NCBI GenBank assembly: GCA_943736015.1
Contig: OX031071.1
Location: forward strand, 28,490,619-28,554,618
Direction: 5' to 3'
DNA from: Tridacna crocea
Taxonomy: Eukaryota > Mollusca > Bivalvia > Cardiida > Cardiidae
Length of the DNA stretch: 64,000 nt
Part shown: in pieces, positions 964 to 60,065 of the stretch
How positions within the stretch are numbered: position 1 is the first letter of the stretch
Layout of the letters: every line of letters begins with the position of its first letter
The notes under the pieces: model-generated
What the model was told of the DNA's origin: nothing
Database searches by the model: none
Seen by the model: only the letters and a program-made list of their open reading frames with translations
Made by a program: the position numbers and the translations under genes

Positions 964-3900
964 GTTTTGGCAAATCTGTGGCCATATCTAACTATTTACA
1001 ATTACACAGTCTCACCTTTTAGGTATCCCGAGGACTGAAGCTTTGAAAACATTGTGGTAAAAGTAGAAAATGTTGATAACCAGCTTTTGCTCTTTTTCAC
1101 ATGATATTTTCTACCATATTGATGCAAAAAAGTACAGTTCAAGCCATATTTAAATTGTTTTGCCTTAATACTTTTAGTTTCAACCACTCAAATTTTTGGT
1201 TGTTCTGTAAGGAATTAATATTAGAGTTCAGATAAAATTGCACTTTGATTTTTATATTCTAAAGAAATTTCTACAACATTTTAAAAGAATGCAATCAATG
1301 ATTGGCAAAATCATTTGGTCTAGCCAATCAAAAAGTCTTGTTACTTTCAATAATTGGAATAGCAATTAAGAATCCATTCAATTTGGACAAGTCTAACATT
1401 TTTTTGTTTGGTAAAGAGTTAAGTGTAATGTCTCTTATATAACCTTTGAACTACTGATGCAAAATAGCCACTAGTCTGAAGCTGGAGTTCATTTGTCATG
1501 ACCAGGCAAAATTTCAAATCGTCCTGGTCTCTCAGCTTTTAATGTACAAGGCTTGTAAAAGTTGAGTTGTATCTTCAAATCTTAGTACTCCCTGATTTTA
1601 AGGTGGATAGATGATTCTGAATGTGAATATATTCTTCACAGATTTTTTTTGTGATTTTTATGTTGGCAAGCAGACGGTTAATTAAAAACGCTCTTGTGCA
1701 ATGTACATGTACCTGTAATTTAAGTTTTTGAAACATATCAGTAGGTGCAATCGCTACCATCGTATACAAAGTTAAAGTAACATGTTCTTGATTTACTCTG
1801 TCCACAAAAGAAATTATGATGAATGAATTGCAGTAAAAATAAATACACTATAACTTCAGGTTGATCCGAGAAGGGAGATAACTTACCAAGTCTTTGTTGA
1901 AGAAGTTTGGCCCAAGATCAAAAAGAAGATGAGTTACCACCCTTCATTAGTGTGGACAGAAATCATGTCATTTATCAAGGTATTATAGCTGTTCCAGCAT
2001 CAGATAAAGAAAGAATATATGATTATTTCGGAGAAAGATCAAAGCTTATTTTATCAAGTGAACATTGTTTATAATGCTAGTGATGATGTTCACAACATGA
2101 AATAAAGTTTGATATTTAACAGAAAAAAAAAATATTCTATTTATTCACTTCACCAAAATCCAGCACAATTGCTTTGCATAATTCATAAAGCAATGCACTA
2201 CAATTTTTCTTAAAGCCCAAGAAATGTAGGGTAAATTAGAGTAAATTACTTCATATTTCCACCTTGTTGAATGGCGCACACTGTTGATTAGGTAACTAGT
2301 GCGTGGGAACTACTGTTTTCGCTTTCAGTTGAAGAGCTAAATAATATTACAATTAGTATTTCGCTGGTCATAACTATGAAAATATCAAATGATATCCCAC
2401 CTTTATTTCTGTTGGTTGGTTGGTTGGTTGGTTGAATCGGGGTTCAATGCCACTGTAACAGCTGAGGTCATATCATGGCGGTCGGTGACGCACATACATG
2501 TGTTTCCTGGCTTTCTCAAAACGATACTAACACAACTTCCTTTCCAAAGCCACCAACTACTTTTCTCACATGCTTCAGCAGAGGTGAGAGGCAGAAAAAT
2601 ATGCCGGAAAGAAAGTTTGCCACAACTGGGTATCGAACTCACAACCACCAGGTCATGAGTCCGACATGCTCACCACTGAACCACCCAGGCGGGCACCTTT
2701 ATTTCTGTATAAACAACAGAAAAAACATGAAAAAAACAAGGGCTACTTATTGTTGTATGAACATAACCTCTAGTTGTTTATGGTGGGTAAAGAGAAATTG
2801 TTGGTAATTTGACTAGCTGTTAGGTCACCTGAGCACAAAGTGCTCACGATCAGCCTTTGTAATCATTGTGTGTCCAGCGTCTGTCATATGTTGTCTGTCG
2901 TCAACTTTTACCCTGTATACATACTAGAGGCCACATTTTCAGTCCAATGCGCATGAAACTTGGTCTAAATGTTTGTCTTAATAATATTTTGGTCGAGTTT
3001 GAAAATGGCTCAAGTTGGTTCAAAAACTAGTTCACTAGGTCAAATCTTAGAAAAAACTTGCGAAGACTCTAAAGGCCACATTTTGAGTCCAGTGCTCAAA
3101 AAATTCGTTCTAGATGCTTGTCTTGATGATGTCTGAGAGAATTTTGAAAATGGGTCAGGTCAGGTCAAAAACTAGGTCACTAGGTCAAATCGTAGAAAAA
3201 CCTTATGTACACTCTAGAGGCCACATTTTCAGTCTAGTACGCTTAAAAGTTGGTCAGAATGTTTGTTTTGATTATATTTCAGACAAATGTGAAAATGGTT
3301 CATGTCAGGTTAATAACTAGGTCACTAGGTCAAATCTTAGAAAGACTAAATGCCACATTTTCAGTCCAACACTCTTGAAAGTTGTGTTTAATGTTTGTCG
3401 CCTGCCCTAGTGGTGAGCATGTCGGACTCATGACCTGGTGGTTGTGAATTTGGTACCCGGTTGAGGTGAACTTTCTTTCCAGTGTATTTTCGCCTCTCGC
3501 CTCTGCTGAAGCATGTGCGAAAAGTAGTCGGTGGCTTTGGAAAGAAAGTTGTGTTATTACTGGTGTGAGAAAGCCAGAAAATACATGCTCGTCACCGACA
3601 GCCATTATATGACCTTGGCTGTTATGCTGACGTTAAACCCAAATACAACTAACCAACTGAATGTTTGTCTTGATGGTATCTTGGATGAGTTCCAAAATGG
3701 GATAGATCAGGTCAAAAACTAGGTTACTGAGTCAGATCTTAGAAAAACTGTGTGTGCACTCAAAAGGCCACATTTTCAGTCCAGTACTCTTGAAATTAGT
3801 CAGAATATTTGTCTTGATAATAATCTCAGAGAGTATGAAGGTTTACAGTCAAAACGTACCCAAACCAAAACGTACCCAAGTCAAAACGTACCCAAGTGGA

Positions 3901-6900
3901 GTCAAAACGTACCCAACTGAAGTCAAAACGTACCCAAGTGGAGTCAAAACGTACCCACTGTAAAGTCAAAATGTACCCATGATTTTTATACTGTTTTTTT
4001 CTTCCATCTTTCCCCAAATTAATAGAAACATTGTTTTCGCTATCTTGATGATGGTAATTTTTAATTCTGCTTTATTTCAAAGTTGCCATACATGATTAAA
4101 ACAAACAATGAAGCATATCACAGAACATATAGCTAAGTCTATCAAACGCTTCATGATAAAATTACAGTGTGTGTATCTCTCTTTTTTTTTAGGCAAATAC
4201 AGTTAACATTAGGGAAAAAGCATCAGATACCTTGATATCGTTATCAATCATTATTAATATATATTTTATCAATAAAAAAAAATTGGAAAAAAAAAAATCT
4301 TCATAAGAATTAGCACTGTTATAAAAATGAGATACGTTATATAACTACATTGTTTGGGTAACAAAAGGTGCAATTTTCACACCCAAAAAGAGTGTAATAA
4401 ACTATAATTATGTGGTAAATGAATTAATTATTCACAGTGGTATTTAAGCTGCTGTATATTAACTTATTATATATTTGAATGCTTTGTAAATATTGATGAT
4501 TTGCTTTAGATGAAAAACTGATGGGTTGATTTTTTTTCTTAAATTCATTATATGCTCAGATCGAAATTTTTCTCATATTTTCCTTTTCTTTCCCTTGAAA
4601 GTTCTTCTTTGTAACATTTTTATCATCAGGAAATTCCCTAACCATGGATAAGTAAAAGATTTTGTTGTCTATGAGTGGTGACTCGGTTACACCTTCTTAT
4701 CATTATACGTATAAATATTTACACAATTTTTCAGTTAATTAAAATATTAACATTTAGAGGGCGAATATTATAAGATATATTTTGCATTGAAAATATTGTA
4801 AACTTAACTCTTTACCAATCAATAAAATCTTGGACTCTTTCATTTTGCAGAAGGATTGTAAATACTACAGATTGTGTAATTAAAGGTAACCTGTGCTTTT
4901 TGTTGGTGAAAAAAAAAGACATGTTCAACTAAATATCATTGAACATTTTCATTTTAAACTTGAATTGACTAGAACTAACTTATTTTTTGTTAAGTTTGAA
5001 AAGGGGCTCGGTGGTGAATATAATTAATACTATGTAGCATTGTGTACAAATGTTTGTAAATAATCTTTTATGAAAATAAAACTGTTAATGACAACTAGTT
5101 TGTTACACCTGATTAGTCCTGACATAAACACATCACTCATAGTTGAACGTAGGATTGAAACCATGTATTACTTTTAAAGAATTAAAAGGATATAAAGTGA
5201 GTCCGGAGTTAAAACATCCTTAAAAGGTAAGATACATGAAGTTTTCAATCTATAACTAACACTGAAATAATTTCAATGAAAATTTTACTTTGGGTACGTT
5301 TTGACTTAAATTTTGGGTACGTTTTGACTTAACTTTTAGGTACGTTTTGACTTATTTTTTGGGTATGTTTTGGTTTGGGTACGTTTTGACCGCATCCCAG
5401 TATGAAAATAGGTAGTGTCGGGTCATTAACTAATTCAAATCTTAGAAAGACTTTGTGTACGCTCTAGAGGCCATATTTTCAGTCCAGTAATCCCAAAATT
5501 TAGTCAGAATGTTTGCCTTGTCAATAATTTCTTTAGTTGTTAGCTCACCTAAGCACAAAGTGCTCACAGTGTGCTTTTGTAATCATGCTGTGTCCAGCAT
5601 CCATCGTGCATTGTCCGTCATCAACTTTTACCTTGTATACACTCTAGAGGGCACATTTTCTGTCCAATACTCATGAAACTTGGTCAAAATGTTTGTCTTG
5701 ATAATATCTCGGTCGAGTTTGAAAATGGGTCAGGTTGGGTAAAAAACTTGGTCATCTAAAAAAAAACCTTAAATGTGCTCTAGAGGCCACATTTTCAGTC
5801 CAATAATCTTGAAAGTTGGTCAGAAAGTTGATGATATCTGGGATGAGTTTAAAAATGGGTCATGTCAGGTTAATAACCAAGTCACTAGGTCAAATCTTAG
5901 GAAAACCTTGTGTCTGCTCTAGAGGCCACGTTTTCAGTCCAGTAGTCTTGAAAGTTGGTCAAAATGTTTGCCTTGACAATATCTCGGACAAATTAGAAAA
6001 TGGATCATGTTACATCACTTAGAAAAATATTGATTTTGCTCTAGAGGCCACATTTCAGTCCAATACTCCCAAACGTTAGTCAGAATGTTTGCCTTGATAG
6101 TATCTTGGATGAGTTTTGAAATGGATTATGACTGGTCAATAACTAGGTCAAATCTCAGAAAAATCTTGTGTATGCTCTAGAGGCTACATTTTCAGTCCAA
6201 TACTCTATAAAAGTTTGTCAGAATGTTTGTATTGATAATAGCTTGTGAAAATTAGAAAACAGGTCATTTTGTTCTATAACAGGGTCACTAGGTCAAATCT
6301 TAGATAAACCTTTCATTATGCTCTAGAGACCAGATTTTCAGTCCAATACTCTTTAAAGTTGGTAAGAATGTTTGTCTTGATACCTCAAATGAGTTGTAGT
6401 ATGGGTTATGTGAAGTCAATAACTAGTTTAGTAGATTAAACCTCGTGTATGCTCCAGAGGCCACATTTTCAGTCCACATACTCTTTAAAATTTGGTCAGT
6501 TTGAAAATGGGTCAGGTTGGATGAAAAACTAGGTCACTATGCCAAATTCTAAAAAAAACTTTATGTACACACTAGAGGCCACAATTTAAGTTCAATATTA
6601 ATGAAACTTGGTCAAAATGTTTGTCTTGATGACAAGGACTAGTCTAAAAAAGGGCTTGTGTACAAACTAGAGGCCTAATTTTCAATCCAATAATTATAAA
6701 AGTATGTTAGAATGTTTGTTTTTGTATCTCAAAGAGGTTTAAGATGGATCCTGTGTGGATAAAAGGCTCAGGTGGGTGACTTCAGGGCCATCATGGCCCT
6801 CTTGTCAAAAGATTTTACTGAATTGCCGTAATATGTCCACAAAATAAGTCAAGCTCTAATTTTGTAAGTTTTGGTGCAGGTCCAAATTTTGAGTTTACTA

Positions 6901-9900
6901 CAGTTGCCAAGTTGGAAAATAAGTTTCTGCTTACTTTAGGTGCAACAAAATCAGCCGAGAGTAAGAACACGGGCCAAAATGTGGATTGTGCCGTTTCGAG
7001 GAAAAAATTCGAGGAAAACCCATTTATCCTCACAGTTATCTGCAGTAGTTATCAGTGTTTCAGCCAGGATGCGCCCTTGCGGGATTCCCGCAAATAAATT
7101 AGGTTTCCAGCACATTTCCAAACATGGCACGCCAGATTTGGCGCTTAAAAATCATATTAGGCCCCTGTAACAGTGGCCTGTTACTAACACCATACATTGA
7201 ACAATGCATTCTTAAATAAACAGTGTTCACTTTTAAAAAGGGGTATTGTGTACATAAGTTGGACAGAGAGAAATCATAAAGGATGAGTGAATAAGAGTAA
7301 GTGTGTTGGATATAGGAGAGAAGAGGATTTAAGAGTTTTACTGCTTCTTTATGTGGATGTACATGTATGTTTGGTGTGTTTTGTGGTGAGTCATTTACTT
7401 TTGCAGTTTGTGATTATTTGTATTTGCAATGTAGTATGCTTAATTCTATTGAACCACTGCTTTTTTTTTTTTGTTTATTTTGTTGATACGTTTTGCTTTT
7501 CATATAGTCAAGTCGTATCTGTCTACAAATCAATCTGATCTTTTCTGTTTGCATGGCTTTGAAATAATGCTTTCAGTTTAACAAGCCTTTTACTATGCGT
7601 ATGCCTAGTTTTGTGCATGTATATGTGTTGCTATGTTTATGCCTAGTATGGTATTGGTATATGTGTTGCTGGGGCGTTTGTCATTTTTGCTGAGAGTTTG
7701 TTTTCTTTCTTATTTCATGTAGGTTGGGTCCCCGCCTTTTTTCTGGAATGTCGAGTTGATTTGGAGATTTCCGAAATATGCGATACAGAGATAGTGAAAG
7801 TTTTGAAGAGACTCTATAACCATAGGCGTTCTAATATATGAAGATTTGACCCTTACTACACACTTTCACTTTATAATACTATTTATTAAATGACTTCTGT
7901 TTTGACAGTTTTGAGGATTTTGTCCGATTTTGTTATTTCTTTCCCACAAAGGATTATGAGTGACAAAAAATTACTTTGGATCATTTTCAGTCCTTGCAGC
8001 CCCCCAAAATTGATTTGTCCGTATACGACCGCGCCAAGGTGCAAAAGTGTATGGGACGAAACTGCATTGCATACGAAAATTAATGGAACGAAATCATGAC
8101 TGGCTTAGTGTTTTTAACCCTGTAGTACTACATGAACTATCGAATGCGCTAAATCGGTCTTAATTTTTTGGTACTGGTTCCTCGCCTCTTACATCAAACA
8201 TTTGCAAATTGAGAAAAAGCTACAAAGAGCGGGTAATCTGTTTATAGTAACGTTTTCATGACGAACTAGAAACAACTGGCGGAAAAATTAAAAGAAGAAT
8301 AACCAACTTTTTCACACGCCCAAATGAGAGTGAAGAGGCAGGGCCATCAAATACTGGAAAAATAGCAAAAGTAACACCATCACAAACTTTAGGTGGTTGA
8401 AGCCTGACTAATCTGGCGATGTATCAAAGGTCCCAACAACGAAAAAAAAAACACCAAATTTTAAGTTGTTTGACTTCGGCACAGCTCCACAGAAATGGAC
8501 AAACTTGAACGGAAGGAAAATCTTTATTTCCTAAGGTATTTGAAAAAATGGTATAGACATGTATTCAGTCTTATATTGAAATAATACACTCCCCCACCTA
8601 CTCCCCCTTGCTCAAGATGATTCGCCCCTGTTTAGAATTTCAGGGGGCCAATTGGCCCCTTTTATATCAAAGCTGGCTGAAATACTGAGTTATGAATTTT
8701 ATTCTCTTGACAAATGATGTTTTTGTTCATGTGTGGGGTATTCATGTTTTATGGAAGGAGCTGAAAAATAAAATGTGGGTTAAATGCCGGTTAATTATGT
8801 ACTATTACTCTCTAGTTAAATGGCATGCATTGTTTACTGAGTTAACAACATCACAGGAACTACTTTTTCTAAATTCAAATGAAGAGTTATGGAAACGTTT
8901 ACTTACACAAGTTCACAAAGTTACGTAAGTTTAGTAACATAGGCACACAATTTCAAAAATTCTTTTCCAAAAACTAACAAATTTTTAGCCAAAACATACC
9001 CTGATCTTGTATCAGATTTTATCATTCTTTCTTAATTTAATTTAGTTTCTGTTTATTTTCAGGGATCTTTTGAAGCCCTCTCTAAACGTGAAGGCTTTCT
9101 GTCAATGGCAGACTATATGAACCTCGGGAGAAAACGTGCACCCAACTTCTCTGCAGAAAGAGAACCGATTCATAGATGTTTCAGACGCTATGAACATTTC
9201 AAGAAGCAGCATCACCTGTTTGACGAGACAGACCTTGTGCAAAATATATATAGACGTCTTGGGCGACTTGGCAATCGCCCCTGGGTGATACATGAAGTGT
9301 ATGTTGACGAGACCCAAGATTTTACCCAAGCAGAACTTTGTCTTCTGATTCAAATATGCCAAAACCCAAATGATATGTTCTTAACAGGTAATTCAGCCTG
9401 GAAGGAATTAGTTGTATACAGATTTAATTTCAATTCTGTGCTCCTTTCTCTGTGTCTTTATTAGAATTTTTCAAACCTAATGAAAGTACAAAAAGGTTTG
9501 TTGCAGAGAGATTTTTTAGCTTACCTTGGCATGCTTAATGAGCATTTGTTACTGTGTTAGTGGTCAGGCATTCATTGTCTGTCATACATTGTGAACTTTT
9601 ACCTTGTGTATGCTCTAGAAGTCAGTTTCGGTGTGATACTAACGAAACTTAGTCAGAATGTCTGTCTTGATAACATTGTAAAAAGCTAAGTGGCTACACT
9701 TCTTGTCCAGTACTCAATATAAGCATTCAAAATGTTCGTTTTGATGACGTCTTGGACAGGTATGAAACTGGGTCACATCAGGTAAAAGAATAGGTCATTG
9801 GCAGATATCCTGAAAAAAAGCCTGATGGAAACTTTAGAAATGACAATAATTATTCAGTCCACTGAGTATAACAGTCTGTCTGAACATTGGTCTCATTTTA

Positions 9901-12900
9901 GCTCCAATGGCTTTGAAAATAGATTATGTCTTATGCAAGGATAGGTCAGCAGGACACCTTGGATACACTTTAGAGACTACATTTTTTTCCCTGAAACTGA
10001 TGAAACTTGATGGGAATGTTTGCCTTGATCATAGCTCAGACAATTTTGAAGTGGGTCGCATCAAGTCAAATAAGTAGGTCACTGCGAAAAAGATTTTGGA
10101 AAACCTTGTGAACACTGTAGAGGCCATATTTTTATTATTCCAATACTCATACTAACTCGTTGAATTGTTTAAGTTGATATGTCAGATGAGTTTGAAAATG
10201 GGTCACCTTGAGACAAAAAATAGGTCACGTGGAAAAATGTCGTATACACCCTGTAGGCCACTTTTTCAGTTCAACGGTCTTGAAGCTTGGATAGAATGTT
10301 TGTCTCCCTAATCGGGTCACGTCCTGTGATAAAAATGGGGCACCCTGATGAATCTTTAGAAAACACTTTCTGGACACAATGTGGTGCAATATTCATGAAT
10401 GTTTGTCAGAATGTCTGTTGCATATATTTATTGGAGGAGTTCAAAACTGGGTCATATCAGATTAAAATGGTAAGTCACAGACACACTGATTAAAAAAACC
10501 TTAATCAGAATCTCTGGAGGGTTTGAAACTAAGTCATGTCTGGTGAAAATATAGGTCACTGCCAGGACTCTAAGAAAAACTTAATGCAGAGTATAGGGGC
10601 CTTATTTCCATCCAACACTAATGAAACTCGATTGGAAACTTTGTCAGAATAAAAAAGTAGGTACCTCTGACAATTGTTAGGAAAATCGTGTATACACTCT
10701 TGAGGATATATTTTTCATGTAGGCAGAGCTGGGTAGATACCTTCTGCAATTGTATTACACTCCCTCTTCTAAGGGAATAGCTTGTATATATATGTTTTCA
10801 ATAACCGTTACTGTTTTGACCCGAAAAATCAAAATGTTCACATGTATATTTCCAGGAGACACAGCACAGAGTATCATGAGAGGAATTTCGTTCCGATTCA
10901 GTGACTTAAAGTCCCTGTTTTATCATGCAAAACAATCTATGCAAGCCATGGGGAAAACCTCGGCCATTGCAGTCCCTAAAAAGGTGTGTTTTTTAGCTCA
11001 CCTGAGCACAGCGTGCTCAAGGGGAGCTTTTAGGATCACACGGTGTCTGTCATCCGTCGTGCGTCGTCAACAATTCTTTAAACATCAACTCACCTAAACC
11101 ACTGGGCCAGTTTGGACCAAATTGGCTGGAATGTTTTTTGGGAGGTCCTCTTTAAAAATTGTTCACAGAATTTGGTTCTGTCAAACTGGTTGCCATGGCA
11201 ACCAAATGGAATTTTCTAAGAAATTCTATAAAAAATCTTCTCTGAGACAGTTGGCCAGATTTTAAAATAATTTCACAGAGATGTTCCTTGGCTGACCCTT
11301 TTCAAAAATTGTTCGTGAAATTTTGATCCATCAAGAAACGTGGCTCTGGTGAATTGGGGCTACTTGCACTATAGGGAAATGAAGAAATTCTTAAAAATTC
11401 TTCTCTGAAACTGCTGGTCAGATTTTGAAATAATTTCTCGGGGATGTTTCTTGGGTGACCCTTTACTTGCATTATAGGGAAATGAAGAAATTCTCGAAAA
11501 TTCTTCTTCTCTGAAACGGCTGGACAGTTTTTGAAATAATTTTACAGAGTTGTTTCTTTGGTGACCCTTTTCAAAAATTTTTCCCAAAATTTTGATCCGT
11601 CAAGAAACATGACTCTGGTGAATGGGGGCTACTTGCACGATCCATAAATGAAGAAATTCTTAAAAATTCTTCTACTCTGAAACCGCTAGGGTGTTTTAGC
11701 TCACCTGAGCACGAATCTTTGAAAATCTTCTTCTCTGAAACTAGATAGCATAGAGCTTTGATATATGGTATGTAGCATCTCCTAGTGGACTTCTACCAAG
11801 ATTGTTCATATGATGTCCCTGGGGTCAAAACTGGTCCCGCCCCAGGGGTCACAAGTTTGAAACTTAAGGAAAATTTTAAAAATCTTCTTCTCTGAAACTA
11901 GAAGCCACAGAGCTTTGATATTTGGTATGTAGCATCTCCCAGTAAACCTCTACCAAGATTGTTCATATGGTCCCCCTGGGGTCAAAACTTGTCCTGCCCC
12001 TTGGGTCACAAGTTCGAAACATAGGAACAAAGAAGGAAAACTTCAAAAATCTTCTTCTCTGAAACTAGAAGGTGCAGAGTTTCGATATTTGGTATGTAGC
12101 ATCTCCTAGCGGACCTCTACCAAGATTGTTCAAATGATGTCCCTGGGGTCAAAACTGGCCCTGTCCCGGGGGTTACAAGTTTGTATTATAGGAATAAAGA
12201 AGGAAAACTTTAAAATTCTTCTTCTCTGAAACTAGAAGGCGCAAAAGTTTGATATTTGGTGTGTAGCATCTCCTAGTAGACCTCTTCAAAGATTGTTCAT
12301 ATGATGTCCCTGGGATTAAAACTGGGTGAAGCTCTACAAAAGTTGTTCAAGAGATTGAATTCCATCCAGATTTTTTGCAACCATATGGAAAAACACAGCA
12401 AAACCTTTGAAAATCTTTTTCTCTGAAACTAGAAAGTGCAGAGCTTTGATATTTGGTATGTAGCATCTCCTAGTGGATCTCTACCAAGAGTGTTCATATG
12501 ATCCCCTTGGGGTCAAAACTGGCCCCGCCCTGGGGGTCACAAGTTTGAAACATAGGAACAAAGAAGAAAAACTTTAAAATTCTTCTTCTCTGAAACTAGA
12601 AAGTGCAGAGCTTTGATATTTGGTATGTAGCATTTCCTAGTGGACCTCTACCAAGATTGTTCATATGATGCCCCTTGGGGCAAAACTGGTCCCGCCCCGG
12701 GGGTCACAAGTTTGAAACATAGAAATAAAGAAGGAAAACTTAAAGCTCTGCACCTTCTAGATTCAGAGAAGAAGAAAATTAGATATTTGGTATTTAGCAT
12801 CTCCTAGTGGACCTTTACCAAGAATGTTCATATGATGTCCCTTGGGTCAAAACTGGCCCCACCCTGGGGGTCACAAGTTTAAATCGTAGAAATAAAGAAG

Positions 12901-15900
12901 GAAAACTTTAAAATTCTTCTCTGAAACTAGAAGTTGTAGAGCTTTGATTTTTAGTAAGTAGGATCTCCTAGTGGATTTCTACAATGTTTATTAATATGAT
13001 GACCCTGGGGTCAAAACTTACCCTGCCCCTGGGGTCACAAGTTCGAAATATAGGAACAAAGGAGGAAAACTTTAGAATTCTACTTCTCTGAAACTAGAAA
13101 GAGTAGAGTTTTGATATTTTGTAAGTAGCATCTCCTAGTGGACCTCTGCCAGGATTTTTTTTAGGATGCCCCTGGGGTCAAAACTGGCCCTGCCCAGGGG
13201 TCACAAGTTTGATTTTACAGCTTAGTACTCAGGTGAGCGATATAGGACCGTCATGGTCCTCTTGTTTATTAACTCCATGATACAAATTTGTGATAAGGTT
13301 TTTTTTTTCCATACCTCTATGAAAACAGAAAAAAAGTTCTCTTTATTCCTTTTAATTCAATATCAGAGACAATAAATATGCACTTGAAAAATACCAACTG
13401 CTCTTTTCATTGAAAATCCAACATTGTTTATTTATTTAATGTCCATTTCATTCAAAATTGATAGTGCGGTAAAACTGTTGGTTTATGACATAACAATGAT
13501 GTAAATTTGTAACGTCATTATAGTATTGAACATTTGCAGGTTCAGTAGATTTATTATGAGAAGTTCAGTATGCTAGAAATAAGTTGAAAATAAATTGTTT
13601 GAACCCAGCAAAGTGATAATGTGTTTTCAGCTCTTTCACTTTGATTTTACTGTTGGATATTTTTTTTAACATTTAGAGAAAATTCAGGGAGCAGACTTGA
13701 TAAAGATCTAAAATCAGAAAGAAAGCCAATATGAAATCTCGTATAAATGTTTGTTTATGTTACTTTGACTGCAGATGTAGTCCCAGCACTGCTCATTTTT
13801 TTTTTCATGGAGTTATGAAAAAAATTTATCCAAATGGAACTTGCCATTGTTTATGAAAGAAATGCTATTGAATTATTATGTCGATGCTGTGTGAAAAGGG
13901 GATTTAATGTATCTGTAAGAAGTATTAAACAAAGTTACTGGATGTAGTCAGGTCGACCTAAATATTCTGCATGTATAAGAACCGTTCTACCTCAGAATTC
14001 AGCCAGTTTTTAGACAAAATAATTTTAACCATTTAATAACAATCCCTGGTTTTTACAACCCTGAGATAGAAGCCTTTTGAAAACATTGTGGGAAAAGGAG
14101 ACAATCCTGGTAACCAGCATTTTCTCCTTTCCTACAATGTTTTCTACCTTGCTGGACACAAATTTCACTTTTTGAGTTACTTTTATATTGTCATCAGCAA
14201 GGGCTCTCAATTTGGACCAGTCTAAAATTTTGTCGTTTGGGAAAGGGTTAATTGTCCTTTATTATCTGACGATTTTCTGAATCACAGAATTGCATTAAAC
14301 TCCTTTTTGCCTGAACATTGCTTATTTATTTGGTACCATTACAGCAAATAACTTCAATAATTTCAGGTTTATCAGCTGACACATAACTACAGATCTCATG
14401 CTGGGATTCTCTCATTGGCTAGCAGTGTCCTTGAACTTATGGTGGAATTTTTCCCAGAATCCTTTGACCGTCTGCAGCGGGACCAAGGATTGTTTACCGG
14501 TCCCCAGCCTATTTTACTAGAGTCCTGCAGTTTTGGTGACCTGGCTGTGCTCTTACGGGGAAACAAAAGAAGGACCTCACATATTGAGTTTGGAGCCCAC
14601 CAAGCAATTTTAGGTAAGAAGAAATGTTTATTTCATCAGCAAACAATGAATTTTAACAACACTGATGGAGAAGACGTTAAGAGATTGTGGGGAAAAAAGA
14701 AAATGCTAGTTACTAGCATTTTGTACTTTTCCAACTGTTTTCTATTCTTTTAAAGGACTAATGTTATCATTTTAACCACCTTTAATTCATCATCTGCTTG
14801 TGCTTTCAATTTCGAGTAGCTTAAGAATTTTGTTTATTTGGTGAAGAATTTATATTGCCATCAATAAAGTGGCACTTTTCCATAAACCATCTGTAATGTA
14901 ACAGCCTGGAAAAAGAGGGTGTTTGATAACATGGAGGAAATAAGACAAAGAAATTTCGGTTACAAGCGTCTTCTTTCCCGAAGGATGTTTTCTACTCATT
15001 CAAAATCAGTTCTCATCATCCAAGTCACATTAGAAAATTTCTTTTGAATTATTAACATACAAGCAACTGGAGGTGATTTTTTTAACCCTTTATCGCTCTG
15101 CCCCAACTTTTAACTACCTTGTGGAAACAGCCTTTTTCCACAATGTTTCTATACTTTCAAACACTGATTGTATCAATTCAGCCACAATGACTGCAAATGC
15201 TTTCAATTTGGAACAGGTCATTTGCTAAAGAGTTAAAAGATAGTTCTATGATCTTAGGCTTATGAACCTTTTTCCTTAGGTGAGAAAAAACCCAGAAAAC
15301 ACATGTGTAAATGAGGTGCCCCTGATAGTTCTGAAATATTACTGAAAGTAGAATGAACCATGATGAAAACAAATCTATGGTGTACATATCATACTGTTCT
15401 ATTACACAGTTGTGAATGAGGCAGCACGAGACACTATACCTGAAGAACTAAGATTGGGATTAGTGCTCACAATCTACGAAGCCAAAGGTTTGGAGTTCGA
15501 TGATGTGCTGCTCTATAACTTCTTCAAAGATTCGCAGGTAAGAATTTTTTGTAGCTCTTTTAAAAAATTATTATAGTTTTTTCTTGTCTGTCTCCTGGAA
15601 TTTTGCTTGTCAGGCTATATCTAGACCTACAGATTGGTAACCATATCTATAAACAAACACACACAGTTACTTCTACCTTTAGAATGGTTTAACACTCTTC
15701 AGTTTTTGCTAACATTAAATCTAATCAGTCAAGCAAATGTAATTGCCCAATAAACCAGCATTCATTCATCCATTGATTTATTTATTATTCATTCATTCAT
15801 TTAGTTACAAAAAGGGCAATAAATTGATTTGTTTTTTTGTCAATTTTTGGACAGGCTGTCAAGGAATGGAGAGTTGTAACTCAGTATCTGGAAGAACAGC

Positions 15901-36900: not shown

Positions 36901-39900
36901 TTCGGTAAGATTTCGGCAACCTTTCGCATACTGTTCCGCGTATCACTGCCGAACAAGCCCCGTTTGCCAAGCTCCGCCCATTTTCATCCCGAAAACTCCC
37001 CAAATTTAGCCATTTTTCATCTGCAACCCTTCAACAAGCAATCGGGGTTGTAGTGGAGGGCAGGCCTAAGTTTCTATGATGTGTCTGTAAAAAGCTGTAG
37101 AAAATGCGAGAAAACAAGAAAATACTGTTTGCCAGCATTTTCTCCTTTTTTCACTATTTTAAGCTTGACTATTTTTGAAAAAAGAGTTCTTGTCAAGCTG
37201 AAATTTTTACATTTTATAATACATGTATCTGTTATTACTGAAGATATTTTCTTCGAACTTGGTCAAGACATTAACTATTAGATAGTAAACTCATAAAACA
37301 GGGACAGGTATTAACTATAAAAATGAGCCATGTTCCCTGAAAAGGGGGCTTATTGCATCCGTGAAAAGTATTGACCCAGGTCAGCCTGTGCAATTTGTGC
37401 AGGCTGACCTGGGCCAAAAGTTCTCGCTATTGATCAACTTTCTGTATGCACAAGAACAAGTCTACGTCAGGATTAAGTCCCTTGTTAACACATTACTGCA
37501 CAATCCCTACCTTTGATGACCTGAGAAAGAGGCCTGTAGAAAACATTGTGGGAAAAGGAGAAAATGCTGGTAACCAGCATTTTCTCCTTTTCCCACAATC
37601 TTTTCTACCCTTCACAAAACAAATTCCAAAATTCCAGTCACTTTTATTTTGTCGTCTGCAAATGCTTTCGATTTGACAAACCTGAAACATTGTAGTTTGA
37701 TAATGAGTTAAAAAGGTTGGGTAAGTATGTGATTGGTTGCTTGGTACCATCACAGAGATGCATTGATCCCTCCTTTGTCAGAGCATAGCTCAAGTTTTTT
37801 TGACATAGTTCTCTTCCCTTTCATCACCCAAGAATTTTCACTGAAAATCAAGCTGGAACTTGCAGCTGTGTATTTACAATGCATGAGGTGCTCCTGTTTT
37901 AAAAGCTCTCATTATCAATCATAAAAAGTCTGGATTGTATGGGAAAGGGATAGCCGTGTCGGCATTTACCATCATAGTTGTGAAACATTTTCCCATGTCT
38001 TTAGTATTATTGAAGATATTTACTTTAAATCTAGGCTAGATGTTCACTATTTTATCATGGTACTAGAAGAGCAGGAATCCCCCCCCCTTTTTTTGACCCA
38101 GTTATGCCTTTTAAACATTACCACAAATCTAGATTCTTAACATCTCGGACAAAAAAGACTTTGGAAGACATTGTTGAAAAAGGAGAAAATGCTGTTGACA
38201 GTCGTTTTCTCTTTTTGGCACAATGTTTTTTACTCTGCCTAGGTACAATTCCAATTTTTATACCCTCCACAAACAAAGTTTGGGGGTATACTGGAGTCAC
38301 CCTCTCCGTCCATCCATGCATCACGAAATCTTGTCCAGAGCATGGCTTCCAAAGTATAATAGCCAGTGACTTCAAACTTCACACACAGGTAGATCACATT
38401 TAGGAGAAGTACAGTGTACAATAACCATAACTCTATTCCAACTGTTTTTGGAGTTATTTCCCTTTGTAAATTTTAACTTTGGACTTTTGTCCGGGGCATA
38501 ACTTCCAAAGTGAAGAAGCTAGTAACATCAAGCTTCACACACAGCTAGATCACGTAAAGGAGAAGTACAGTGTAAAGAACCATAACTCTATTCCAACTGT
38601 TTTTGGAGTTATTGCCCTTTTTAGATTTTAACTTTGGATTTTTGTCCGGAGCATTACTTAAAAAGTAAGGAAGCTAGTAGCTTCAAACTTCACACACAGC
38701 TAGATCACATTAAAGAGAAGTGCAGTGTACAAAAAGCATAACTCTATTAAAATTATTTTTTGAGTTATAACCCTTTGAACATTTTAACTTTGAATTTTTG
38801 TCTGGGGCATAACATCCAAAGTTAAGAAGCTAGTAACTTTAAACAAGAACCATAACTGTATTCTTACTGTTTTTCAAGTAATAGCCCTATGTGAATTTAA
38901 ACTTTATATTTTTGTCCAGAGCATAGCTTGAAAAGGAAAGAAGCTAGTAACTTCAAACTTCAAACTCTATTCCAGCTGTTTTTTGAGTTATTGTCCTTCG
39001 TATATTTTAACTTTGGATTTTCGTCCGGGGCATAACTTCCATAATAAGAAAGCTAGTTACTTCAAACTTATATACAGATAGGTTACATTGTGGAGAAGTG
39101 CAGTCTACAAGAATCGTAACTATATACCAACAATTTTTCAAGTTATTTTCCTTTGTAAATTTTAGCTCTGGACTTTTGTCAGGGTCATAACTTCCAAAGT
39201 GAAGAAGCTAGTAACTTCAAACTTCACATACAGATAGATCACTTAAAGGAGAAGTGCAGTGTACAAGAACGATAACTATATTCCAACTGTTTTTTGAGTT
39301 ATTGCCCTTTGTAGATATTAACATTGGATTTTTGTCCGGAGCATTACTTCAAAAGTGAGGAAGCTAGTAGCTTCAAACCTCACACACAGCTAGATCACAT
39401 TAAGAAGAAGTGCACTGTTTAAGAATCATAATTCTAATCCGACAATTTTTTGAGTTATTGTCGTTGGTAAATTTTAATTTTGGATTTTATCTGGGACATA
39501 ACTTGCAAAGTACTAAAGCTAGTAACCTCAAATTTTATGTAGAATTAGATCATTGTAAGGCAAAGTGCACTTTAGAAGAACCATAACTCTATTCCCACTA
39601 TTTTTAGATAGACCACATTAACGCGAAGTGCAGAGTACAAGAACTGTAAGTCTGTTCCCACTAGGTTTTTTTTTTTTTTTGTTTTAAACCATTCTGCATT
39701 CTGTTACAAAGAGCATTTTTGTGACAAGGAGCTGGTTGGGGGTATGATCACGTTTAGTGATAGCTCTAGTTTTATTTATCCTTTACTTGTTATCTGCAAA
39801 TGCTTTCAATTTGGACTAGGCTAAAACTCATTTTTCATACAGTAAAAATTTGCACCTAAGAAGCAATTGCAACCAATTGATGGTATATTTAGGCATCTGC

Positions 39901-42900
39901 ATTATCTTTATTTCAGGATTACAGACAGACTAATGCTATTGTACCAGGATACTTACATAGTAACAGGCCTGCAGCACACCATACTGAAGAAAAACTCAGC
40001 CACAAGTAATTTTCTTCCTTTTTGGGCCCATACCGAACAACCCTCTTGTGTTGTAAGGAATGATTGTTGAATTTGTGTTTATTCATTGTTTCCATTGTAT
40101 GCTCATATTGGCAGTTCTTGTTGGGGGGGGGGGGGGGGTTGCAAGATCCATGACAAACGCCATCCTTACTTCTGCTTGGTGGTTCTTTAACAACCTCAAT
40201 TAAATAAAAGACTATTGATAATTTTAGATGTCCAGCTCTGGGGCTTAAACCTACAGCCTCAGCTAATCCAAATTTTAATGTTTACAAGTCCTGTGCTCTC
40301 GACCGGGATTCGAACCCAGGGCCTCAGGAATACCGTTCCTGAACTCTAACCAACTGAGCTACCGAACCACATATCGATACGGCCGCACGATATATCGCCA
40401 AATACCTATACCCGGCTACATATACCCCGCCAAGTTTAGAATTTGTTCCAAATTCTGGACTCTGAGAAGCATTGTGAAACAAGCTTGAGGTGCCTAAGCA
40501 GTGGGTTATTTACGTTGGCCACCGAGGAAAAGTAGCCATTTCAAATTGAACATTTTCATTGCTTCTTTACATGATAAAGTATTTATTTGTGATCAGATTT
40601 TTGTGAATTTTACAGTTTATTTATCTCATGAATAGATTTAATAAACATGTTGACTTTGAAAAAAAAATCAAAGAAACAGTAATGGAAAAGTAGCCATTTC
40701 AAGTTGAAATTTCAATTTCTAAATTACATGATGAAGTCAGCATTTACTGTCGGATTTTTATGAAACTTGCACAGTTGCTTTGTCTCATCAACAGCTGGAA
40801 ACAATCAGTATGGGAAAAGTAGTCATTTTAAGTTGAAGTTCCATTTCTTGTTTATAAATAAAAAGGCTTTTAAAAACATCACGGAGAATATTTATGTTTG
40901 CAGACCATGAATTGAAATTTATTTGTAACAGGTCGTGAAAAATATATCGCAGCTCGTCCGGGATTCAAACCCAGTTCCTCAGGAATACCGTTCCTGAACT
41001 CAAACAAACTGAGCTTTCCTTCACACTGATTTTACTGGTTTTCTTTTTGCATCATGAATTAATAATGTATGCTAGCATAAAAGCAAACTCTCTACCAATA
41101 GACCGATTTCAGGCCCTTCAGGGCCTTCTAGTTAACATTTAATCAAGATAATTTACTGATAAGTTATCCTTAGCAAATGGCAAATTTTAAAGTTCACTAC
41201 AAGGACTGTAAGAAAATTGCCTGGTGTATTTTCTGTACTCCGAAAAAAGTTGGAGATATACATGTATACACTGAAACAAAACTTGGACGTGTCCCCGCAT
41301 ACAATTTTTAAGCAATTTGTCAACCAGTTTTGTCACCAGTTCATGACAAATTTCAACATTTTGATCATATTATTGTCAACTATGAATGCTTTCAATGTAG
41401 ACTAGTCAAAATTTTGTAGTTTGGTAAAGTTGTAACTTTTCAATCCTTGTCTCTTGCAGGGCTGCTGTAAAATTCCATAGAATTGGAAACAAAGAGAGAA
41501 TGTTGAGCGCCCTTGAGTCATTCCCTAAAGTAAGTGACCAGGTTGATTTTCTGGAGAAACGTGGGTTTTTCATAGAGGCTGCCAGAATACTGGAGGATAA
41601 TGGTAAATATTTAAATAATTTGTAATTTACATGTACATACATGAAATAAAAAGCATTGGAAAACATTGTCGGAAAAGGAGATCAGTATTTTCTCCTTTGC
41701 TTGTTTTGTTTTTAGCTCACCTGAGCACAAAGTACTCAGAGTGAGCTATTGTGATCACTCACCGTCCGTCGGCATCCATCTTCCGTCCGTCGTCCATCCG
41801 TTCACATTTCCTTGTTTACACTCTAGCATCTACAAATATCAACCAATCAGCACCAAACTTGGTCAAAGTGTATATGACCATAAGATCTTGGATGAGTTCG
41901 ATTATGGGTCTAATCGAACCAGAACATCTGGAGTTACTTGCCCTTGAATTTAAAAAAATTGCTATATTTCACTTTGTTTACACTCTAGCATCTACAAATA
42001 TCAACCAATAAGCACCAAACTTGGTCAGAATGTATATGACCATAAGATCTCGGATGAGTATGATTATGGGTCTAATCTGACCAGAACGACCGGAGTTATT
42101 CGTCCTTGAATTAGAAAAATTGTTATACATGTATTTGACTTTGTTTTCACTAGCATCTACAATTATTAACCAATCGACACCAAACTCGGACAAAATATAC
42201 ATCACCATAATACCTCGGATGAGTTTGATTATGGATATAATCGGATCAGAACAACTGGAGTTCTTTGCCCTTGAATTAGAAAAAATTGCTATATTTCACT
42301 TTGTTTACACTCTAGCATCTACAAATATCAACCAGTCAGCACCAAACTTGGTCAAAATATATATGACTCAAAGATCTCAGACGAGTTCAATTATGGATGT
42401 AATCAGACCAGAACAAGTGGAGTTATTTACCCTTGAATTAGAAAAATCTTTAGAATAGTTCTTAGTCTGGAGCATAACTTTGTCATCTCTAGTCTGACTG
42501 ACTTGAAACTTGGCATTTGTGTTTGTTGCAATAACACAGAGTGCAGTGTGAAAGAACCATAACTCTTCCTCATACTGTCTATGAGTTATTTTCCTTTGAT
42601 TATCATTTTTACAGCATTTTCTGCTTGTCTGGTATATAAACTTGTCATCTACAGCTGAACATCTTCAAATTTGATATGCGTGATTGTTGAAAAATTATGA
42701 GTGCAGTGCACAAGAACCATAACTCTTCCTAGCGCAAAGTTTGAGTTATTACCCCTTTGACCTTCATTTTTATACGCCCATCGAAGACGGGACGTATTAT
42801 GGGATCACCCGTGGCGGGCGGGTGGCGTCCAGTTCTTTGTCCGGAGCATATCTCCAAAACTATACTAGCTAGGGTTATGAAATTTCATGAGTGGATAGAT

Positions 42901-45900
42901 CTCATTGAGGGGGAGTGCAGTGCACAGGAAACATAACTCTTGCTCGCTTAATTTTTGAGTTATTGCCCTTTGTTTTTTTTTCCATACTTGAATTTTGTCT
43001 GGAGCATATCTCCAAAAGTATACTAGCTAGGGTTATGAAATTTCATGGGTGGATAGATCTCATCGAGGGGGAGTGCAGTGCACAGGAATCATAACTCTTG
43101 CTTGCTTAATTTTTGAGTTATTGCCCTTTGTTGTTTTTCATACTTGAATTTTGTCCGGAGTATATCTCCAAAACTAACTAGCTAGGGTTATGAAATTTCA
43201 TGGGTGGATAGATCTCGGCGAGGGGGAGTGCAGTGCACAGAATCATAACTCTTGCTCCCTAAGTTTGTGAGTTATTGCCCTTTGTTGTTTTTCATACTTG
43301 AATTTTGTCCGGAGCATATCTCCAAAACTATACTAGCTAGGGTTATGAAATTTCATGGGTGGATAGATCGCATTGAGGGGGAGTGCAGTGCACAGGAATG
43401 ATAACTCTGGCTTGCTTAATTTTTGAGTTATTGCCCTTTGTTGTTTTTCATACTTGAATTTTGTCCGGAGCATATCTCCAAAGGTATACTAGCTAGGGTT
43501 ATGAAATTACATGGGTGGATAGATCTCACCGAGGGGGAGTGCAGCGCACAGTAATTGTAACTCTGACTTGCTTAATTTTTGAGTTATTGCCCTTTGTCAT
43601 TTTTCATACTTGAATTTTGTTCGGAGCTTATACTTGCTAGGGTTATGAAATTTCATGGGTGGATAGATCTCATCAAGGGGGACTGCAGTGCACAGGAATC
43701 ATAACTTTTGCTTGCTTAATTTTTGAGTTATTGCCCTTTGTTGTTTTTCATACTTGAATTTTGTCCGGTGCATGCCCCAGCTTTACAACTTTGGGTAAGA
43801 CGGGCGTATCTTGCGACAATTTGCCGCTCTTGTTATAGCATTTCTTGCTTGTTTGGAGCAAAACCTTATTATCTTAAGCAGGAATGACTTGAAATTTGAT
43901 ATGCTTATTTGTTGCAATATTTGGAAGTGCAGTGCACAAAAATTGTAACTGAACCTAGTGCTTTCGTTGAGGTATATCCTTTTGAATGTCATTTTTACAG
44001 CATTTTGTGAAATTCGGAATATAACTTTGTCATCTCAAGTCAGAACAACTGTTGCAATAATATGGAGTACAGTGTGTAAGAACAATAACTCTACATAGCG
44101 CAAATTTTGAGTAGTTCCACTATGATCTTCATTTTTACAGTATTTCTTGCTTGTCTGGAATGGAACTTCGAATTCTTGAGTCAGATTGCGATAATTTGCT
44201 GCTCGTGTTTCATTATCACTTGGCATTGAACCTTGTTATTTGGTATTTATCTTTATTTTAGAACTTTTCTGTTTGGTACTCAGGTGAGCGATATAGGACC
44301 ATCATGGTCCTTTGTGTTTCTAATTACAACATTACCAGGTTACCATTTGATAAATGTAGATTTGAAAATCATATCAGAGACTTGTTGATTTGCCCTTTAA
44401 ACATCTTCTCCTGATCGGCTGGGCTAATTTGGACCAAATTGAATTTGGACCAAATTGGACTGGAATGTTCCTTGGGAACTCTTCTTTGAAAATGAAATTG
44501 TTCACAGAATTGGATTCCATCAAAAACACTGGTTGCCATGGTAACCAAATGGAATTCTTAAAGAAATTCTTAAAAAATCTTCTCTGAAAAAACCACTGGT
44601 CAGATTTTGAAATAATTTCACAGAAATGTAACTTTGGTGACTCTTAACAAAATTTGTTTACGAAATTTTGATGGGGGGGGGGGGCTGGCTTAAAAAAATT
44701 CTTTGGAATTCCTATTCTCTTAAACTACTCATCACATTTTATAGTAGTTTTACAGAAATTATCCTAGGGTGCCTCTTTTGAAGAATTTTTAGCAAAATTT
44801 TAATCTAGTCCAGAAGCAAAATTTTGATCTGTCAATAAACATGGTTGTGATGTGGGATGGGGGGAGGGGGCTATTTGCAGTATACAGACATGAAGAAATT
44901 CTTGAAAATTCTTCTATTCTGAAAGCACTGGTCAGATTTTGAAATAATTTACAGAAATGATCCTTCGGTGACCTTCAGATTTTCATCAAAATAGTTTTTT
45001 TATGAAAAGGGCTATTGCAGATATCAACCTACATGTATACCAGGTAGGTGAGTGCACTGATGAGAAATGCTGATATGTAAAAGCAAGCTGTACAAGGTCA
45101 GATAACTCAAATCTTTTCAAATTATACCCTTTTTAGCTCACCTGAGCACAACATGCTGAAGGGGAGCTTTTAGGATCATCAACATCAACTCCTCCTAAAC
45201 TGCTGGGCCAATTTGGACCAAACTTTGCAGGAATGTTGCTTGGGAGGTCCTTTTTAAAAATTGTTCACAGAATTTGATTCCATCAAAAACTCTGATTGCT
45301 ATGGCAACCAAATGGAATTTTTTAGCAAATTCCTTAAAAATCTTCTCCTCTGAAACCACTGGTCAGATTTTCAAATAATTTCACAGATATGTTCCTTGGG
45401 TGACCCTTTTCAAAAATTGTTACGAAATTTTGATTCATCAAAAAATGTGGCTCTGGTGAATGGGGGCTACTTGCACCATACAGAAATGAAGGAATTCTTT
45501 AAAAATCTTCTTCTCTGAAACCGCTGGTCAGATTTTGAAATAATTTCACAGAGTTGTTCCTTGAGTGACCCTTTTCAAAAATTGTTACGAAATTTTGATT
45601 CGTCAGGAAACATGGCTCTGGTGAATGAGGGCTACTTGCACAATACAGAAATGAAGAAATTCTTAAAAATTCTTCTTCTCTGAAGCTGCTGGTCAGATTT
45701 TGAAATAAGTTCCCAGGGATGTTCTTTGGGTGACCCTTTTCAAAAAATGTTCGCGAAATTTTGATTGGTCAAGAAACATGGCTTTGGTGAATGGGGGCTA
45801 CTTGCACTATTGGGAAACGAAGAAATTCTTGAAAATTCTTCTCTGAAACGGCTGGACAGATTTTGAAATAATTTCACAGAGTTGTTCCTTGGGTGATCCA

Positions 45901-48900
45901 TTTAAAAAAGTGTTCGCGAAATTTTGATTTGTCAAGAAACATGGCTCTGGTGAATGGGGGCTACTTGCACTATATGGAAATGAAGAAATTCTTGAAAATT
46001 TTTCTTCTCTGAAACTCCTTGTTAGATTTTAAAATAATCTGACAGAGATGTTCCTTGTGTGACCCTTTTCAAAAACTGTACATATAATTTTGATCCATCA
46101 AGAAACATGGCTCTGGTGAATGGGGGCTACTTGCACTATACGGACATGATGAAATTCTTGAAAATTCTCTCTCTCTGAAACCCCTGGTCAGATTTTAAAA
46201 GAAATTTTCTGAAATGTTCCTTGGGTGACCCTTTTCAAAACTTGTTCGTAAATTTTTATCCATCAAGAAACATGGCTCTCATGGATGGGGGCTACTTGCT
46301 CTTATACAGAAATGAAGAATTCTTAAAAATTCTTCTTTTTGAAACTGATGGTCAGATTTCGAAATGACTTTTACAGGTGAACTTTCGAAAATTGCTTGGC
46401 AAAATTATGAATTTGGTTCCAATACCTCAAAAAAAAAAAAGGCTATGGTCATCTCAAAAATTCAGGTGAGCGATCCAGGGCCATCTTGGCCCTCTTGTCT
46501 TACTTAGAATTTTAACTTACTACCGGCATGCAGTGTGCCTTGTTTTACTTAAAATTTTTAGCCAATGTCAGGCATGTGCTTTTGTTGAAGAAATGGTCAA
46601 CAGGTGACCTATCCCAAATAAACTCTCCTTATTCAAAAACATGGCTGTGGTGATGATTGTAGGGATGGTGACAGATTTTAAAATGATTTTTACAGGTGAC
46701 CTTTTCAGAATTGCTTCGCTAAATTATGATTTTGTTACCAAAATTTTAATACTTCAAAAAAAAATTGGCTAGGGTCCTCTCAAAGAGGTAGGCGAGTGAT
46801 CCAGGGCCATCTTGACCCGCTTGTTTAGAAATATATCACTATTTTCTAGACAACCCTGTGTTTTAATGAAGGAGCCCTTTGAAATTATGATGGAATACAG
46901 AGAAAATGCTGGTAACCAGCTTTCAAGCAACTCTAATCTTGCAAGAACTTGAACATTTTCTCACATCTCAGTTATTACTGAATATGTTTTATCACATAAA
47001 ACCTCCTCCAGCATTGTATCAAATCCATGACTTAATTTTGATAATACACCCATGTACATGTAATATTGTTTTGGGGTCTTAGTTTTTGTTACTTTGTAGA
47101 GATGAGCACATAAAGTGGGCAAAACCAACCACAGCACATGCCTGAATTTGTACTAATGTGACATTTTGTGGAAAAATGATGTCACTATAGCTATAATGTA
47201 TATACATGGAAAGATGTATGATTTTCATATTAATGATTAGATAAAAAAAGAAGTGCAGCTTAAGTTATTTAAAACCATAAAACTTGGGAAAATATTTCAA
47301 TATACTCCTTCTATAAACTCTTTCATTCTACTTGCTGTGTAGGGTTGAATGTCACAAGCTATCTTGTTTGTCATTGACTAACATTCATTTAATTTTAATT
47401 GACCATTTTGATAAATATGATGATGCATACAAGGGCTGTTCAGAAATTATTGGGACAACACTTATAATATAAAAATGATAAGACTTGCAAATGAAATAGC
47501 TCATCACAGTTGACAAATACTTTATGACTTTATACATGGCAAATACCAGGCTGGTCTCCTGTATAAGTATCAGGGCTCGTCGAAAATATACCACCTTGCT
47601 CAGTCTGGACCACAGTGGCGTTTTGAACGTGACATCCTATCAATATTACTGCTCCTTCAAACTAATGTCATTCCTTTTCAAAATTACCCAGTCCCAGTAG
47701 CTCGGTCTGCACCATGTAGGACTTGAGAGCAGGCGACTTGGGTTTGATCTCTGGCTTGGCAATTTCTTTCAGGGGATTGATGATAGTCACTGTGACAGGA
47801 TTCATTCCTCTCCCACTGCTAACCATTGCTTTGACAATGGATATGTGGAAAAGCAGCCAGTAGCTTGGGAAAAAAAAAACAGTGCATAGTAGTAGAAAGA
47901 CTCCAGGAAAATATGGATTGGTGCACTGGCAGCTACAATATAATTGAAAATTATGCTGAAAACGGTGATAAACACCATACAATTAAAAATCAACCTTTTA
48001 AAAAAAAATACCATTTAATCTAATTGCATAATGATGTTGCTGCACCCATTTGTGGCACAGTTTTACATCATTAACTAATCTAATTACCTCAATACATTAA
48101 GTCCCTCATTCTTAAATTCACTGAATTATTGAATCTTGTACCTTTCAAGTGGAAAAACATTGATGTGATAGAAGATGTTGCATCTTTCCCAAACTATCTG
48201 TACCACCAATAACAAGAGCCTGAGTCACACCTCTCCCGCTCTATCTCACATCTGACATCTTTTTTGCATAGGAGATTTTCCATGTTTGATGCAAAACTTT
48301 ACATAAGCTAGCTGCTCCATCTTTAGGTCTCTTGCTGTTTCTTTGATAACACAAACTTCCGGAAATGGTCAAACTTGTTTAACAATTATGGGAATGTCAT
48401 GAAATTTCACTTAAAATTTGACAGAAAAACGTAGTGAATACAGCATCATTTCAGTTGACTTAATCCTGCAATTTTGATACCATTCAAACTTTCATTTAAG
48501 TGTTATTTAGTAGTATTCGAACTTACTAATTTTTACAGCAAGCTCCTGTTATTCACTACTCCTTATGATTTCAGATGATCTTTCAATTTATTAAAGATCA
48601 ATTCACAGTTATGGAAAATTTTATCCACCCACAAGATGTCAAGTTTTTCTCTCAAAACATACACTGTCACAATAAGTTTCGAATGACCCTAGTAAACTCT
48701 TATAATAGATCCCATACTGCTGGGGCAAATTGTTTATTAGCTAAAGGAAATTTGAATAAAAGGGCTAAATATTTCAACACAGATTTGTCTTTGATTTTTC
48801 ACTGTTGAAGCACTTGCAGCTGAGCATTTATACATGCATTTGGTGTTTTTGTTCCTTTTGTCATGATTGTATTTAACTCTTTACTCAATGAAAAAACTTT

Positions 48901-59751: not shown

Positions 59752-60065
59752 TCCTTTTATACCGCCCAATCACAATGTGGGGGATATAAGTTTTCAGCTT
59801 CAACAGCTAGGAAGTTATGGCCTGGACTGGACAAAAATTCCATCTGAATATCAACAAATGGCAATAACACAAAAAAACATGAATGGCAGTTTTGGTTCTT
59901 ATGCACTGCACTTCTCCATAATGTGTTCTGCCAATGTATGAAGTTTCAAGTTGATAGCTTTTATAGTTTGAAAGCCCGGGTGAAAAATTCGAGTGAAACG
60001 ATAGACTGATGGACAAGGTGACCCCAGCATTACCCCCTAAAACTTTGCTTGCTGTGGGTATTACA
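59752..60065. repeat. possible HINE remnant with F-type hairpin
   Basis: TATACCGCCCAATCA-CAA and TGTGGGGGATATA form an imperfect hairpin. GGGTATTACA-type sequence ends the stretch. No tandem core. Confidence 0.4.

Follow-up and report, generated by a model that had tools for sequence, protein, structure and literature searches.

One Helentron-type frame and its co-inherited tandem-repeat cores, probably of common descent, in the genome of Tridacna crocea

Results

Elements of the window and their ends

The 64,000-nucleotide stretch of the Tridacna crocea genome considered here (assembly GCA_943736015.1, contig OX031071.1, positions 28,490,619 to 28,554,618 of the forward strand; hereafter the window) carries a series of Helentron-associated interspersed elements (HINEs), in which shared 5′ and 3′ ends enclose tandem-repeat cores of type A, B, C or D (Table 1). 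The initial annotation of the window had taken these ends for a mobile frame that swaps at least four unrelated repeat cargoes. Swapping of unrelated cargo finds no support in this study: in 45 of 47 typed copies the core subtype goes with a 5′ end of its own, and the cores appear to be one diverged superfamily.

A 25-base hairpin query allowed up to 6 mismatches located ten 5′ ends (at 2822, 5542, 10995, 11698, 19673, 30858, 32827, 35094, 41714 and 45135), and a 33-base query allowed up to 9 mismatches matched seven places for the 3′ end; 20 dinucleotide shuffles gave mean chance expectations of 0.05 and 0, respectively. The 5′ end is present at all eight places previously annotated, with 1 to 6 mismatches over the 25 bases, to which the scan adds the ends at 2820 and 35092 and alignment a degenerate A-type end at about 9518. 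Closure by a 3′ end was found for seven of the ten 5′ ends, six of them in the scan (6804, 13264, 21045, 31783, 44315 and 46497) and the seventh, at 34604, missed by the scan and recovered by alignment; the pairing of 5′ with 3′ ends was read from the sequence. The 3′ end described earlier as common to the elements wherever kept is a feature of seven elements out of ten, often in imperfect form (8 mismatches at 6804, 7 at 44315). Placement of the elements in a single gene, as the annotation had it, was not established, the exon support consisting of sub-threshold UvrD-helicase matches (E 0.0017 and 0.0028) that are both below the curated cut-off.

Table 1. HINEs of the window, with window coordinates; LF is the segment ahead of B and C arrays described in the text
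Core	Position	Strand	Composition
A	2820–3839	+	5′ end and A array; 3′ end not found; interrupted later
A	5540–6804	+	5′ end, A array, diverged 3′ end with 8 mismatches
A	9518–10646	+	Degenerate 5′ end; clear 3′ end not found
B	10993–11690	+	5′ end, LF, B array; without 3′ end of its own
C	11696–13264	+	Frame remnant of only about 15 bases as 5′ end, C array, 3′ end; LF piece in register in the array at 12304–12416
B	19671–21045	+	Both ends; LF palindrome at 19879
B	30856–31783	+	Both ends; lies within a repeat-E array (empty site)
C	32825–34604	+	Both ends; LF ahead of the array, second LF copy behind it at 34447–34558
B	35092–36070	+	3′ end lacking; an A remnant with an A-type 3′ end comes next
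D	41712–44315	+	Both ends; D array with F-like monomers behind it; 3′ end nearest to C type
B	45133–46497	+	Both ends; flanked by B remnants at 44406–44976 and up to 46823

Anatomy and copy number of the frame

The elements of the window match the hallmarks of HINEs as these are given in the available parts of PMC4067079 and PMC7492417. The 5′ subterminal inverted repeat (subTIR), GCTCACCTGAG, has its exact reverse complement, CTCAGGTGAGC, at 3′ ends of C type and at intact genomic ones of A type, and 3′ ends of B type agree with that complement in 10 of 11 bases; these inverted subterminal repeats are of the length seen in HINEs (at least about 11 bases). The inverted repeat adjoining the 5′ subTIR forms the HINE hairpin, for which no shuffle in 200 folds as well at 19671 and 41712; the hairpin at 2820 is weak (13/200 shuffles equally good). 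As read in the sequences, the GTCC/GTCG-rich stretch after the 5′ end corresponds to the microsatellite that HINEs have ahead of their tandem repeats, and the 3′ palindrome is represented by hairpins at 44282 (1/200 shuffles as good) and 46464 (9/200). An empty site is available for the element at 30856–31783: its 60-base flanks join continuously in the consensus of the surrounding repeat E, the element lying between T and T, and this one copy shows insertion of the HINE kind, with neither target duplication nor loss.

In the 1.05-Gb assembly the exact 28-base 5′ end TTTAGCTCACCTGAGCACNNNGTGCTCA has 4,190 forward and 4,099 reverse occurrences, 8,289 in all, and the same pattern read backwards has none genome-wide. 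Taken together, the anatomy, the thousands of copies and the empty site bear out the earlier view of the ends as one mobile frame of Helentron type. Three patterns searched against viral contigs and two against genome contigs of external collections returned no match. Contrasting with the near-even genomic count of the two strands, all ten scanned 5′ ends and all seven 3′ ends between 2820 and 46823 of the window are on the + strand.

As HINEs, the elements would be non-autonomous rolling-circle elements of Helentron type, mobilised in trans by a Rep-helicase, and we infer that a Helentron mobilises them. This genome yields 32 matches to Helitron_like_N, against none in 14 control genomes, and 9 of the 32 fall within open frames of 1,896–2,728 residues. 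At four of these 32 places the 2 kb lying to the 5′ side were without the frame, and at two of the four they were coding throughout.

Ends and cores are inherited together in the sampled copies

Association of ends with cores was assessed in the first 50 of 100 listed copies among the 8,289. After removal of three untypable copies (L032, L051 and L061), core typing of the remaining 47 gave 15 A, 16 B, 8 C, 4 C2, 3 C3 and one B variant (L070). The nearest neighbour on 40 bases of the 5′ end (positions 19–58, outside LF and core) predicts the core type in 45 of the 47, whereas 2000 shuffles of the labels averaged 4.1 and never exceeded 15; the two copies mispredicted are L070, which is alone in its class, and L071. 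Readable 3′ ends are typed likewise, with scattered substitutions: ATTCAGGTGAGCGATCCAGGGCC in B, ACTCAGGTGAGCGATATAGGACC in C/C2 and AACTCAGGTGAGCGATTTCAGGGCC in A. When 56 5′ ends, each about 60 bases long, were placed in a tree with supports read as splits, the 21 B copies grouped with L070 (support 99), the four C2 copies with one another (98) and the 17 A copies likewise (72), and the C copies formed no group.

Subtype D was sought separately. Each of the best 40 of 3,071 candidates covers the stretch from the T-run ahead of the hairpin up to and including the D array, so that among these D frame and D core stand together in 39 places elsewhere in the genome at 88–90% identity; because the ranking favours likeness to frame and core at once, the search shows that the pairing recurs and not that other pairings are absent. 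Ends and cores are co-inherited in the sample, and this, together with the recurrence of the D element, argues against free swapping.

Homology among the cores

Cores were compared profile against profile, together with LF, the roughly 155-base segment that separates the array of B and C elements from the GTCC-rich part, and dinucleotide-preserving shuffles served as the null (300 for window profiles, 500 for profiles built from genomic copies). With window profiles, the pairs A–D, B–C, B–LF and C–LF were each reached by 0/300 shuffles, the alignment of A with D having 91 identical columns in 143. With genomic profiles, A–D and B–C gave 0/500, as did 26 of the 28 pairs that can be formed from LFB, LFC, LFC2, LFC3, B, C, C2 and C3 (the other two being LFB–C3 at 1/500 and LFB–C at 12/500). 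nhmmer searches agree, the D array being matched by the A model (E 7e-10) and the A arrays by the D model (E 3.8e-8) in constant register. The iterated B model of nhmmer had absorbed LF copies and its LF matches are not independent; the profile comparisons kept LF apart. The cores A and D are homologous, and so are B, C and LF. The annotation had regarded the four cores as unlike and unrelated, and had named as its refutation the finding that they form one diverged family; this is largely what was found, since the two groups are in turn joined by the in-register test that follows.

Comparison of A with LFC by profile (0/500) is insufficient alone, because reverse-complement controls also score, and an in-register test was therefore made, in which the two halves of a monomer are each compared with the B/C/LF superfamily to see if their matches fall near the same diagonal (2000 shuffles; controls, 600 ordinary 145-base stretches of the window and the window repeats X1, at 58991, and X2, at 61921). 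The two halves of genomic A peak on one diagonal, with a sum reached by 1/2000 shuffles; window A was reached by 0/2000, its second half peaking 10 columns off, and the A consensus by 0/600 control stretches. Repeats E, F, G, X1 and X2 were not significant in this test. Joint profiles of A and D against LF gave 11/2000. Comparison of A with B or LF as single consensus sequences returned nothing, and a scan over whole-monomer rotations, which produced weak peaks only, was not used as proof of the link.

A further point of contact is the site of bivR, a primer for the bivalve satellite BIV160, which is found with 1/21 mismatches in C2, 3/21 in C and 5/21 in A (0/1000 shuffled primers in each case), at an identical position of the monomer in A and C. 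Core D has no bivR match. The companion primer bivF is unconvincing (C, 10/25 mismatches, 80/1000; C2, 9/25, 28/1000). Judged by this site, the C cores are BIV160-like. The link from A/D to B/C/LF is thus supported, if more weakly than the homology within either group; its strength is modest, and a single superfamily, not proven, seems more likely than two.

Repeats E, F and G were dropped as candidate members of the superfamily, the in-register test having been negative for all three. Between E and F the comparison was significant (0/300 with window profiles, 0/500 with genomic ones), and weakly so between A and E; E was nonetheless excluded, given that its reverse-complement controls were about as strong.

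LF and the turnover of cores

LF profiles score 90–165 among themselves, above any array, and the B profile lies nearer to LF (65–92) than to C (41). The palindrome GGTTGCCATGGCAACC in LF was recovered at up to 2 mismatches in 29 of 32 typed non-A copies, and was not found in any of 15 A copies; it may resemble an RFX X-box. In the ordinary B element L059, only the first unit is LF-like. The array of L070, by comparison, alternates LF-like and B-like monomers five times, odd monomers scoring 51–115 bits with LF and 17–39 with B, and even ones 87–114 with B and 18–36 with LF. LF also occurs inside one C array of the window and behind another (Table 1). In L071 a C3 array is joined by single monomers of A/D-like (A model, E 1e-7) and F-like type, and the 3′ end is of C type; this composition and that of the D element in the window suggest that the interior is composite and that its parts are amplified and lost to different degrees.

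At about 2520–4950 of L046, C-like repeats and an LF-like segment lie in a frame of another kind (TTAGCTCCACTGGC, with GCCAGTGGAG towards the 3′ side), pieces of which are seen in the tails of the C2 elements L053 and L067.

Discussion

Based on the collective evidence, the elements are probably best understood as HINE subfamilies (A, B, C, C2, C3 and D) with one frame, in which ends and core are passed on together and the core is renewed from inside the element. The frame consists, in order, of the 5′ hairpin with its 11-base subterminal repeat, the GTCC/GTCG-rich stretch, the tandem core, the 3′ subterminal repeat, a hairpin and CTCTTG, and the cores would have diverged from an ancestral monomer of about 145–167 bases. 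Monomers, including the single LF ahead of the array in the B and C lineages, would be re-amplified, homogenised and lost by in-register exchange. Since one diverged repeat travelling with matching ends would suffice for the cores, cargo swapping is not needed to explain them. That LF is a monomer recruited into arrays, as in L070, favours turnover of this internal kind.

Several observations weigh against common descent with co-inheritance. The sample lies entirely on contig C1 and has the exact hairpin throughout, so that old copies and subtype D are under-sampled. D is weak in the in-register test (18/2000 shuffles, 19/600 control stretches, halves peaking on different diagonals), and joint A and D against LF with B is reached by 226/2000 shuffles. 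Of 78 pairs, 9 have reverse-complement controls at or below 5/500, many of them by way of the LF palindrome, and the bivR site is not in B (10/21 mismatches, 710/1000 shuffled primers). In the 5′-end tree the C copy L052 joins B with support 85, a mild conflict and the one exception in that tree. An autonomous element with these ends was not found, four of the 32 Helitron_like_N places having been examined in part, on their 5′ sides.

Three other explanations were considered. In one, which we think rather unlikely, the mixtures in the window would come from nesting, truncation and read-through of neighbours, and not from exchange inside an element. There are clear cases of such arrangements, including B without 3′ end running into C (10993/11696) or into an A remnant (35092–36070), B inserted in array E (30856) or flanked by B remnants (45133), and the D element, which encloses a repeat element whose frame is different. 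Nesting accounts for these composites; it does not account for several cores, because the window has elements in which both ends enclose one kind of core (e.g., 5540, 19671 and 30856), and such elements recur in the genome sample.

Another explanation holds that A/D and B/C/LF are two independent repeats, alike in short motifs by convergence, which would leave two unrelated cores behind one frame. Strong significance in the register test for A only, D alone falling short, is in keeping with such independence, as are the absence of the LF segment from A and D elements and the failure to find the LF palindrome in A copies. We nevertheless regard it as doubtful in view of the match of A to both halves of the superfamily on one diagonal, with its low frequency in shuffles and controls, and of a BIV160 primer site that A has at the monomer position of C. 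Repeated capture and swapping of unrelated cargo by one mobile frame, the view of the initial annotation, is improbable: it can point to related flanks around unrelated repeats in the oyster elements Cg_HINE_3 and _6 (available part of PMC7492417), to the 5′ end of L052 and to the D element of the window, with its C-like 3′ end, A-like core and a 5′ end placed, without support, beside a C3 copy, but the cores form homologous pairs, probably with homology across all of them, and 45 of 47 typed copies carry the end that belongs to their core.

Preferring common descent with renewal from inside leaves the role of LF to be considered. LF could be a frozen ancestral monomer, kept in the B and C lineages with its conserved GGTTGCCATGGCAACC palindrome and seeding new arrays; we advance this tentatively, as a possibility somewhat short of even, and the direction of change, with LF as the seed, is inferred. 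If it is true, the HINE renews its core internally, several satellite families arise from one element-borne seed and not by capture, and the array of LF–B dimers in L070 is a snapshot of the process.

Comparison with known systems

The closest parallel is Cg_HINE of the Pacific oyster (PMC7492417), which has in common with the window elements the 5′ subTIR, inverted repeat, microsatellite and repeat core of 140–180 bp, the 3′ subTIR with palindrome, and insertion at TT without duplication. Both sets of elements likewise have differing repeats behind related flanks, contain double arrays and keep each repeat cluster with one pair of flanks. Also from the Pacific oyster, eight elements (Helitron-N2/N2C, N3 to N40) are reported to combine shared end boxes of 53 and 42 bp with different satellites (PMC8268682). 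The arrangement of one frame with several cores is therefore already published. The differences lie in the cores, the group-2 repeats of Cg_HINE being called completely unrelated whereas the four cores of one frame appear homologous here, and in the single diverged monomer LF ahead of B and C arrays. N2/N2C have a 156-bp box between microsatellite and repeats, which is like LF in place and length, the two respects in which they were compared; unlike LF, that box is not described as a monomer in the accessible text, nor did we find a pre-array box described as a diverged monomer in the literature within reach. What is new here is that LF is a monomer in its own right and enters into arrays.

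HINEs of mites and Drosophila and DINE-1 share the subTIRs, the short inverted repeat, the 3′ palindrome, the preference for TT and, in some copies, the tandem repeats (PMC4067079). Autonomous Helentrons with the same ends were found there; none was found here. The bivalve satellites BIV160/Cg170 (PMC5139131) share with cores C and C2 the bivR site and a period of about 160, the comparison having been made via primer sites only, of which bivF was unconvincing.

Two scenarios for the origin of the tandem repeats are distinguished in PMC7492417, capture from outside and making from the element's own sequence. If the cores share one monomer that survives singly before the array, the own-sequence scenario becomes directly testable by phylogeny. 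There is a warning in this as well: a 70% threshold may lead to core clusters of one superfamily being judged unrelated.

Other features of the window

The F and G arrays (38258–39772 and 42770–43835), related to each other (0/300), are flanked by other HINE-like ends (ATACCC..., TACGCCC...). F-like monomers also lie behind the D array, so that one core family stands behind several kinds of ends, and a lone F-like monomer is present on the − strand at 59834–59975 (F-only model, E 1.5e-20). An insertion in the E array, at 27890–30562, is mariner-like, with two open frames that have Transposase_1/HTH_32 and DDE_3 matches above cut-offs. Short AGTCAAAACGTACCCA repeats in opposite orientation (3847–3979 and 5289–5388) bound the stretch that interrupts an A array. 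On the + strand, 49090–52515 holds an open frame of 1,141 residues without Pfam match at E 0.01. Two further tandem repeats, each with 97% matches, consist of a 46-base unit in four copies (16321–16505) and a 154-base unit in four copies (58991–59604), the latter used above as a negative control.

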